Shown here: positions 57,403 through 59,303 of the stretch, one piece after another | Position numbering within the stretch: position 1 is the first letter of the stretch | Layout: each line of letters opens with the position of its first letter | Assembly (NCBI RefSeq): GCF_015687155.1 | Contig: NZ_JADPQF010000005.1 | Span: forward strand, 248,001-312,000 | Length of the DNA: 64,000 bases | Reading direction: 5' to 3' | From: Aliikangiella sp. G2MR2-5 | Lineage (GTDB): Bacteria > Pseudomonadota > Gammaproteobacteria > Enterobacterales > Kangiellaceae | Program-made: the position numbers and the translations under genes | The notes under the pieces: model-generated | What the model saw: only the letters and a program-made list of their open reading frames with translations | Told to the model about the DNA's origin: nothing | The model's database searches: none

Positions 57403-58026
57403 TTAACTATCATTATTATCTTGATGTTCGACCTTTTCGATATCACCAGTCACCTTCTTCGACAACTCAGCCTCATCTAACTTCCCATAGGTTTCAGACA
57501 ACATTTCATTGATCTCAATTAATAACTCAAGACGGTGCACAAAACCTTTTGTAAAATGAGGGAATTCATCGTCTTCCAGGTCGCCAATTTGCATAATCAT
57601 CTCGATCAGTTTTTGCTGGTGTTCAACATAAAGCTCCTGAAACTTGTAAACCTTTGAAAAATTTCTAACCTCGTCAAATGTCATAAATTGAGCCGATTGG
57701 GTCATTCTTGCCGTATCCCAGGCTGCAGAGGTTATGATGGCCATTGAGAAGCTAAAATCGAAGTTGGCATCGGTATTACCCGTTTTCTTAAAGTATTCGA
57801 GTTTTTCATTGAGCAGCTTTAACATATCCTGATGAACAGGCAACTTGCTGTCCAGCTGCTTCTTATTGTCCTTTATTTCTTCAATGATTGCGTGCTTAGC
57901 ACTATCTGCCAGCTCCATTTTTTCCTTATCTTCTCGCCACTCGTCAAGTGCCAGTGCACCTAAAAGCGCGATAACGATAAAAAACGACTCGAGTAAAATA
58001 TCGGGAAGTTTTTTGGACAGTTTCAT
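57403..58026 (-). CDS. Membrane-anchored protein, DUF6090-like
   Basis: 207 residues. One N-terminal membrane helix (ILLESFFIVIALLGALALDEWRED) followed by a helical, charged region. The pattern helix then LDEWRED-K resembles small membrane-anchored proteins of the DUF6090 type, whose function is unknown. No enzymatic motif. It stands alone with AT-rich flanks. Confidence 0.65.
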   Translation of the reverse strand: MKLSKKLPDILLESFFIVIALLGALALDEWREDKEKMELADSAKHAIIEEIKDNKKQLDSKLPVHQDMLKLLNEKLEYFKKTGNTDANFDFSFSMAIITSAAWDTARMTQSAQFMTFDEVRNFSKVYKFQELYVEHQQKLIEMIMQIGDLEDDEFPHFTKGFVHRLELLIEINEMLSETYGKLDEAELSKKVTGDIEKVEHQDNNDS

Positions 58027-58610
58027 CGATAGCTCCTTGCTAAAGGGATTCTTATTGTAGTTGTAAAGTGCTTCTAATTGCTTGAGATGTACATAATAAC
58101 GATTTTAAAGCCTCTTTGCATTGATGATCGCAGGAAGGGAGTGAGAATTAAAAGGAATTATTTAAGGTCACTAAAACAGCTAATCCAGAAACAATTGGTT
58201 TTCCTCAACGACTTTAGTCACGACTCAAAATGTATTATTCATGGTTCATAGATAGGTCCTACTAGAGGGTGGGGCGTGAGCACAAATAGGTGTTGGGCGA
58301 TTAGATGATTTTAACATGCTATCAAGAGCTAATAGCGCTGGCCCAGCGGCCTGAGCGCAGGGTATTTTTTGGTGACTTTCGCCTACAAGGATGTAGGTGA
58401 GGGGCGTTAGCCTTTGTTGCTCTTGACAAAAAGTTACTTACGTCCAAGGATGGACTGTATGCAGTTTTTGCAGGAGCAAAAAACAGTCGCACGAAAGCCC
58501 AGTGGAGCGAAAACCGTTTAGGTTTTGATTTTCCAATCCACAACCTAAAGAGATTTTAATAAAATAGAAAGTTAAGTACGAAGGATTAAATGAAGTCGAC
58601 AAACTAAAAA
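58027..58610. other. Intergenic stretch containing a structured element
   Basis: 584 bases between two minus-strand genes. The part 58321-58520 is a dense array of hairpins (see separate entry). The rest is AT-rich. A minus-strand frame of 73 codons across the hairpins is not credible as a gene. Confidence 0.5.
58321..58520 (+). ncRNA. Structured element with three AGGA-loop hairpins (CsrA-sponge-like RNA or dispersed repeat)
   Basis: Read on the plus strand, three hairpins have different stems but the same loop AGGA: CCTACA-AGGA-TGTAGG (58382-58397), GTCCA-AGGA-TGGAC (58442-58455) and TTTTTGC-AGGA-GCAAAAA (58465-58482). The first contains UACAAGGAUGU, the core of the known CsrA selection consensus (RUACARGGAUGU). 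A long-range stem TCAAGAGC / GCTCTTGA (58322-58329 with 58419-58426) encloses the first, GACTG / CAGTC (58453-58457 with 58484-58488) encloses the third, CGCTG-GCC-CAGCG lies at 58336-58348, and AAAACC / GGTTTT near 58510 may end it. Different stems around an identical loop speak for selection on structure. I see no clear promoter. It could equally be a copy of a dispersed intergenic repeat. Confidence 0.5.
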
Positions 58611-59213
58611 CTAAACCCCAAGGTCACCAATTATTTTACGCAAATAATCGATATTTTCCTGATAACGCCTAATATCTTTCGTACATTTGGAGTTGCTTTG
58701 AATACCCTGAAAGGCACTTACCAGAAAGCGCGCGGTTTTTACCGGCTCAATATCATTCTTTATGTGACCCAGATCGATCCCCTTTTGAATGACTTGAGCA
58801 AGCTGTTCAGTCCAGGACTCAAAAACATTATTAATTCTTTCCCTGAAGCCTTCGTCTTCATAAGCCATTTCCTGACCGAGATTGGTTAAAGGACAACCGA
58901 CTTCGAGATTGGCGAGACAAACCTCTCCTCTGGGATCATCAAAGGAGGCTTTGAGCGTTTCCAATGGGGGCAGGTTTTGTTCCACCAGATCTTGCCAATG
59001 TTGCATAAACATGCCATGCAGCAATTCATCAACCACCGCGTAGCCTAACGCCTGTTTATTGGGAAAATGGTGATAAATAGCACCTTTGGTGAGTCCGGTT
59101 TTCTCAACCACTTCATCGACACGCAATCCCTTATAGCCGTGCTTGTGCAGTAGCTCTGCGGTGACTTCCAGAATTTGTTGTCTGGTCTGTTGGGGGTTCT
59201 TTTTGCGTACCAT
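58611..59213 (-). CDS. TetR/AcrR-family repressor of the RND operon
   Basis: 200 residues from ATG 59213 (GAGAAG upstream). N-terminal helix-turn-helix: TRQQILEVTAELLHKHGYKGLRVDEVVEKTGLTKGAIYHHFPNKQALGYAVVDELL. The C-terminal domain (LANLEVGCPLTNLGQEMAYEDEGFRERI) matches the TetR_C group of YcdC/AcrR-like regulators with a conserved GCPL. It is downstream of, and co-directional with, the LolA-like and RND genes, and a palindrome typical of TetR operators lies upstream of the RND gene. Confidence 0.92.
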   Translation of the reverse strand: MVRKKNPQQTRQQILEVTAELLHKHGYKGLRVDEVVEKTGLTKGAIYHHFPNKQALGYAVVDELLHGMFMQHWQDLVEQNLPPLETLKASFDDPRGEVCLANLEVGCPLTNLGQEMAYEDEGFRERINNVFESWTEQLAQVIQKGIDLGHIKNDIEPVKTARFLVSAFQGIQSNSKCTKDIRRYQENIDYLRKIIGDLGV

Positions 59214-59303
59214 AATCACTTCTCAAGTATTTCAGGCCTTGTGTACAACTATTTTCGTGGCCCTATATAAACATTGTATGGGATATACCTCTCTTTGGGA
59301 ATA

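Follow-up and report, generated by a model that had tools for sequence, protein, structure and literature searches.

A copy of what we tentatively read as a small mobile DNA hairpin cassette, bearing paired CsrA-type sites and perhaps keeping its loop for CsrA, as a decoy or as portable control, lies in the window, the 64-kb stretch of Aliikangiella sp. G2MR2-5 DNA analysed here. We give this reading a chance close to even. That the cassette inserts, that its stems covary, that a free N stands beside a constrained GGA and that the host carries csrA are each documented below; a decoy role for CsrA is a proposal.

The region had been singled out for three hairpins with the same AGGA loop on one strand within about 100 bp, and these stand exactly where the initial annotation had placed them: hairpin A, CCTACA-AGGA-TGTAGG, at 58382-58397 (+), with CANGGANG in its loop region; hp1, GTCCA-AGGA-TGGAC, at 58442-58455 (+); and hp2, TTTTTGC-AGGA-GCAAAAA, at 58465-58482 (+), whose GGA begins 25 nt after that of hp1. 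No other perfect AGGA tetraloop hairpin with a stem of at least 5 bp is present on either strand of the 64-kb window. The cluster exceeds expectation, as 300 dinucleotide-preserving shuffles gave a mean of 0.54 such hairpins per 64-kb window and none with two of them within 100 bp, which rules out its origin by chance. The folding energy of the 280-nt region is -96.2 kcal/mol, compared with a shuffle mean of -73.0 (z -5.3).

The two long-range stems that had been seen to enclose the hairpins, GGTGACTTT.../...AAAAAGTTACT, turned out to belong to a larger dispersed repeat of about 310 bp at 58206-58514 (+), the ends of which are approximate and were set by eye after genome blastn and side-by-side reading of copies. 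This host repeat starts with CAACGACT..TAGTCACGACTCAAAATG and has inside it a long hairpin, GGTGACTTTTTG...CAAAAAGTTACT. When positions 58321-58520 were compared with the window's own genome by blastn, 16 pieces matched at 11 places, including the window itself and a copy of the unit described below in an integrase gene; the host repeat was recognisable at 10 of the 11, being partial or diverged at some. Copies elsewhere in the genome, which has csrA, are what the initial annotation had foreseen in its alternative, a dispersed repeat.

Two inserts interrupt the host repeat in the window. The first, at 58380-58412 (+), between GGTGACTTT and TTTGTTGC of the host repeat, comprises hairpin A and a short GGCGTTAGCC hairpin; all nine other host-repeat copies that were read lack the hairpin A insert, and a relative of hairpin A, CGCCTACANGGATGTAGGTGAGG, is present in two other genomes (L074 and L085). 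A terminator-like site at 58400-58415 (+) lies inside this insert, between hairpin A and the second insert. The latter is a mobile two-hairpin unit of 49 nt, hp1 plus hp2, at 58439-58487 (+), inserted at AAAAAGTTACT^CGCA of the host repeat and matched by a covariance model at 58436-58491 with 60.7 bits. Five of the nine other copies lack the unit (L005, L006, L007, L018 and L019), and the first three of these are empty at the insertion point, between AAAAAGTTACT and CGC. The window copy (L023) had an empty-site match (97% over 37 nt), and the joined flanks of another full copy, L022, matched L006 over 70/70 nt. What had been listed as the second and third hairpins of the cluster is one 49-nt unit, inserted into a dispersed repeat of which empty copies exist elsewhere in the genome. 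The own genome holds six covariance-model matches to the unit, one of them at a contig end (C34:23-78), which may be the same DNA as the copy on contig C12.

The initial annotation had inferred a CsrA-sequestering small RNA or a dispersed repeat, and of this interpretation the consensus loops, the stem covariation and the dispersed repeat in a genome with csrA held, whereas the dedicated sRNA gene was not supported. A CsrB/RsmZ-like sRNA gene at the window locus would account for three CsrA-type loops in about 100 nt of one strand and for the strong fold, but we regard it as very improbable. Hairpin A is missing from the nine other host-repeat copies and the unit from five of them, and the unit is mobile and shows no orientation bias. 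No Rfam family matched the window, nor 58200-58600 at E values up to 10, nor 16 related loci at gathering scores, and these absent matches are the grounds for rejecting a known RNA family for the hairpins. A sigma-70 consensus scan, which can miss promoters of other kinds, gave one promoter-like site, downstream of the element, compared with 1.6 in shuffles, and on the plus strand no promoter stood out; terminator-like sites numbered 2, compared with 0.6. Both neighbouring ORFs, one at 57403-58026 (-) and one at 58611-59219 (-) that is TetR-like by eye, are on the minus strand, so that read-through from them would give UCCU loops. A 73-aa ORF at 58322-58543 (-) lies almost wholly inside the repeat and is likely spurious.

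The initial annotation had also seen stems that differ with pairing kept around a fixed loop, and this pattern extends beyond the window to modules of other genomes. We retrieved 117 distinct modules through hp2 alone. At its fixed place, hp1 showed GGA in 104, ANGGA in 99 and CANGGANG in 97 of them. Column by column, the closing C was found in 103 modules and the following A in 103, the N was T57 A38 G14 C8, the GGA was G112 G109 A109, the second N was mostly T (T95), and the closing G was found in 109. The distance from GGA to GGA was 25 nt in 104 of the 117 modules, and 115 of them carried an extra, bulged A in hp2. The hp1 stem is flanked by G/A-type non-canonical positions (-21/-2 and -20/-3), and its outer position was T-A in 65 modules, C-G in 18 and unpaired in the remainder. 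The hp2 loop was mostly an AGGA tetraloop or an NNGGA pentaloop, the full consensus being present in hp1 only. Within the host's family and order, hp2 stems were diverse (TTTTTGC, TTAATGC, ATAATGC, GTTGTGGT and GAATCTT) and most loops kept NGGA, a few matches being degenerate.

Covariation was measured on 27 of 39 non-redundant modules, which also served for the covariance model, the other 12 having been excluded for an absent hp1 or for an offset or longer hp1 or hp2. In this alignment 95.9% of the cells were paired, compared with 35-51% in slid controls, and 61 cells had changed on both sides, compared with 20.6 in shuffles. The number of pairs with a change on both sides was 7, compared with 5.6, and 22 of 500 shuffles reached 7. 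Stem mismatches of the G.T type outnumbered those of the A.C type by 28 to 13 over four pairs of the 117 modules, and by 39 to 12 on distinct hp1 sequences with a fifth pair added. After collapsing to distinct stems the asymmetry was 12 vs 8 (P 0.25, not significant), and it is therefore not used as evidence.

A fit of the loops to the CsrA/RsmA-type consensus had been claimed as well, and it was borne out. The RsmE/CsrA consensus is A/U-CANGGANG-U/A according to Schubert 2007 as quoted in a passage of PMC6849547, and part of PMC4894983 describes CANGGANG apical hexaloops as high-affinity sites with an optimal intersite distance of 18 nt. An apical CANGGANG loop of the CsrA/RsmE type, closed by C-G, is present in hp1 of the window and in 97 of the 117 modules. 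Two tests of constraint did not have the loop in the query. The first concerned a flank hairpin of Methylotuvimicrobium-type loci, anchored on the arms CCTAC (1 mismatch) and GTATTCACG (2 mismatches) only. Over 110 places, chance matches included, its loop read A89, N (T52 C22 G21 A15), G95 G89 A87 and C72/T22. The second used a composite of 26 copies and 138 columns, anchored on the linker and hp2. Here the N of the flank loop was the most variable column (1.73 bits). The 14 most variable columns further included the second N of that loop (1.10), hp1's N (1.17) and two columns at junctions; the others belonged to the outer flank, and GGA and most stem columns were near zero. A reader of C-A-N-G-G-A-N-G would be expected to leave such a pattern.

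The loop constraint was measured in Methylotuvimicrobium-type genomes rather than in the window's own. Whatever the family does elsewhere, the window copy might be an inert fossil that has decayed as a passenger of the host repeat and now lacks a function. The foot of its hp2 is mismatched (CAG opposite CAG), its fold is weaker than that of copy L119 (z -2.15 vs -3.41) and the own genome has just six model matches, yet all three GGA loops are intact in the window, and we judge such a fossil unlikely.

Hairpins with an ANGGAN loop were also counted in unselected DNA and compared with 89 control loops. In M. buryatense there were 16, compared with a control mean of 1.84, and none of the control loops reached as high a count. 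The corresponding figures were 11 and 5.34 in the own genome (1/89 as high), 4 and 1.40 in strain wino1 (4/89), 3 and 2.07 in Marinobacter (23/89), and 4 and 1.52 in Microbulbifer (10/89), so that the enrichment in unselected stretches is clear only for M. buryatense. In module-bearing named loci with the modules masked, a selected sample, 36 were counted, compared with 2.6. Another GGA-loop repeat family was seen in L174 (335, 2539 and on the minus strand), where AATTCANGGATGAATT lies within a longer CTCTGA/TCAGAG stem with three copies in the 8-kb locus; it occurs in L124 as well.

To see how widely the repeat family is distributed, we used pattern searches and a covariance model. The pattern TTTGCAGGAGCAAA gave 29 matches in 16 of 61 genomes (own included), several of them lone 14-mers with no hp1, and its backwards control gave one. 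The sequence TGCAGNTTTTGCAGGAGCAAAA was found in at least 119 stretches of a genome collection of 84,980 species; going by their titles, the matches listed are from Gammaproteobacteria or unnamed Proteobacteria, except for one Nitrospinae MAG. The search of the genome and its relatives that the initial annotation had proposed proved productive, with covariance model R1 matching 20 of 41 genomes. In a class sample the model matched at least 42 of 276 genomes (own included), or 35 of 216 genera, and in a phylum sample at least 19 of 299 genomes, 14 of them class members and the other 5 from a single genus outside the class; the counts are lower bounds, as filters were stricter in model searches spanning over 40 genomes and, for the class and phylum samples, about 20 candidates were scored per genome. 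The family thus occurs in Methylotuvimicrobium, Microbulbifer, Marinobacter, Kangiellaceae and others. An unusual local cluster was seen in L259 (G013 C10:132001-147000), with eight model matches of at least 28 bits in 12 kb among ordinary-looking genes.

The window's own genome encodes one CsrA (90.8 bits). In the class sample 242 of 276 genomes had a csrA gene, and in the phylum sample 157 of 299; the E. coli control genome carries it too. All 19 module-bearing genomes of the phylum sample had csrA, compared with 138 of the 280 others, a contrast that is not independent evidence because it largely follows the class boundary, so that descent confounds it. Within the class sample, csrA was found in 40 of 42 module-bearing genomes and in 202 of 234 others, and this co-occurrence is not decisive. 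The two module-bearing genomes with no csrA match, G148 and G174, are fragmented assemblies of 430 and 470 contigs, and G257, a congener of G148, has csrA.

Mobility of the unit is apparent from the places in which it was found. In the own genome, at about C1 1696317-1697334 (L016:318-1335), it splits an integron-integrase (tyrosine recombinase) gene, the pieces of which match the TIGR02249 profile at 2-278 and 279-315 on either side of the insert. In relatives it lies inside tRNA genes of tRNA arrays (L032, L243, L040 and L054; positions by eye). A tRNA-Ile is interrupted in L032 (G005) and a tRNA-Val in L243 (G001, of the same genus), where the tRNA-Ile of a similar array is intact; by eye, the insert occupies the identical place in the D-stem of these two different tRNAs. 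The four arrays, from relatives G005, G011, G001 and G012, each hold 6 to 14 ARAGORN tRNA genes in 3 kb, and some of these genes are broken by the hairpin unit or by palindromic inserts of other kinds. Tandem copies of the unit were seen (L053), and it often sits, by eye, at the tip of another hairpin, either a REP-like GTAGGAGC hairpin (L060, L080 and L102) or another GGA hairpin (L066, L069 and L125). Joined flanks were used as queries in 143 cases; an uninterrupted match was obtained for 68, and 41 remained after filtering. The figure of 41 is an upper one, as some of these, for example L053, L088, L118, L158 and L178, are tandem or partial copies and not true empty sites. By eye, the inserts occupy the tips of hairpins, the gaps between helices and the stems of tRNAs, which suggests that single-stranded folded DNA is captured at insertion.

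No orientation bias of the modules was seen between genes: 66 of 122 were usable, after removing 34 at a locus edge and 22 inside called ORFs (the ORF calls being crude), and these included 23 sense/sense and 18 antisense/antisense cases. Nor was there a bias relative to replication, with 17 vs 18 in M. buryatense, where at least 39 modules were placed, and 7 vs 4 in strain wino1, origin and terminus having been taken from sampled GC skew and tandem copies collapsed. Of the 22 modules inside called ORFs, 17 were antisense and 5 sense; the base composition of such repeats may be what leaves their complementary strand open. In composites, both strands bear GGA hairpins.

The main rival to a loop kept for CsrA is a purely DNA-level mobile element, whose enzyme, like HuH or attC-type recombinases, would recognise the folded single strand by its ANGGA loop, bulged A and fixed spacing, the likeness to a CsrA loop being coincidental or secondary. 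Such an element would explain the mobility and the missing orientation bias, between genes or to replication, better than CsrA does. It is in keeping with insertions in a protein gene, in tRNA genes and at hairpin tips, with tandem copies, with the conserved bulged A and non-canonical positions, and with composites that use both strands. However, under this reading the agreement with the entire CANGGANG consensus, free N positions included, has to be accidental, and no constant target site or target duplication was seen by eye. Moreover, no two-hairpin unit stood beside the Y1 transposase genes examined, a result that covers the own genome, with its 6 Y1_Tnp matches, and 8 other genomes, from which 30 loci had been fetched for 39 matches; lone GGA hairpins do lie near some of these genes. 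We consider the DNA-level element a serious contender that is nevertheless rather doubtful.

If the loops are instead kept for CsrA, the following course can be proposed. The 49-nt hairpin pair, nested in a larger dispersed repeat, inserts as DNA and has a largely fixed cassette geometry across Gammaproteobacteria (25 nt from GGA to GGA, conserved linker and bulged A), and hp1 keeps the RsmE/CsrA loop C-ANGGAN-G while the stem sequences drift with pairing kept. Given what is established about CsrA, RNA from the GGA strand would likely bind a CsrA dimer via two sites. A copy transcribed on the GGA strand is thus predicted to be a two-site CsrA ligand, and each copy might titrate CsrA as a decoy or bring the transcript in which it has landed under CsrA control; CsrA binding would then be the reason why the loop is retained. 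The missing orientation bias, the both-strand composites and the minus-strand neighbours in the window speak against a simple RNA reading. A broader proposal, which seems possible if somewhat improbable, is a class-wide mobile family with a CsrA/RsmA-site core, made up of selfish or domesticated cassettes that would spread the loop, rewire or titrate CsrA and possibly use CsrA or CsrA-bound RNA to propagate. If CsrA is what retains the loops, transposition would offer a way of rewiring a global post-transcriptional regulon, and any estimate of CsrA dosage would need to take account of how many copies of the repeats a genome has; if DNA mobility is what retains them, they would point to a further enzyme recognising ANGGA-loop hairpins. 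Under either reading, this is a repeat family for which neither the window nor 16 related loci gave an Rfam match and of which no account or name turned up in the open-access PMC literature.

Compared with known systems, the unit shares with CsrA/RsmA/RsmE sites and CsrB/RsmZ decoys the C-G-closed CANGGANG loop of hp1, paired sites on one strand and a host csrA. It differs from them in being dispersed, mobile and orientation-blind between genes, with promoter-like sites no more frequent than by chance and no Rfam match in the window and 16 loci. Like MITEs, it is non-autonomous, present in several copies and precisely inserted, but it is only about 49 nt long and by eye showed neither terminal inverted repeats nor target-site duplication in the empty-site comparisons, where boundaries are ambiguous by 1-2 nt. 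The palindromic elements of Rickettsia are likewise palindromic insertions within genes and are longer than the unit; we know of no motif that they have in common with it. Phage or plasmid cargo is disfavoured. At the sensitivity of the searches, plasmids and phages gave no match to the window element and viral contigs none to the 22-base hp2 pattern; for the 56-nt unit of L119, phages and 5,426 E. coli genomes were likewise without a match, and plasmids yielded a single one of 27 nt, in Halomonas.

With REP/REPIN elements and their RAYT (TnpAREP), the unit has in common short dispersed palindromes that are at times tandem or composite, but its stem sequences vary while its loop is fixed, and no unit stands beside a RAYT-type gene. 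The part of PMC3733652 that deals with REP sequences defines them by a tag, GTAG or CGTC, at the palindrome's foot, and by eye neither tag is in the column consensus of the 117 modules. The absent tag, together with the absence of the unit beside the Y1 transposase genes examined, is the ground for rejecting REP/RAYT identity. Some unit copies do, by eye, lie inside REP-like GTAGGAGC hairpins. Lone GGA-loop hairpins occur upstream of Y1-transposase (RAYT-like) genes in L212 (about 1410), L218 (about 1457) and L205 (about 1261; L210 is the same place), and these are possibly CsrA-controlled or else due to chance.
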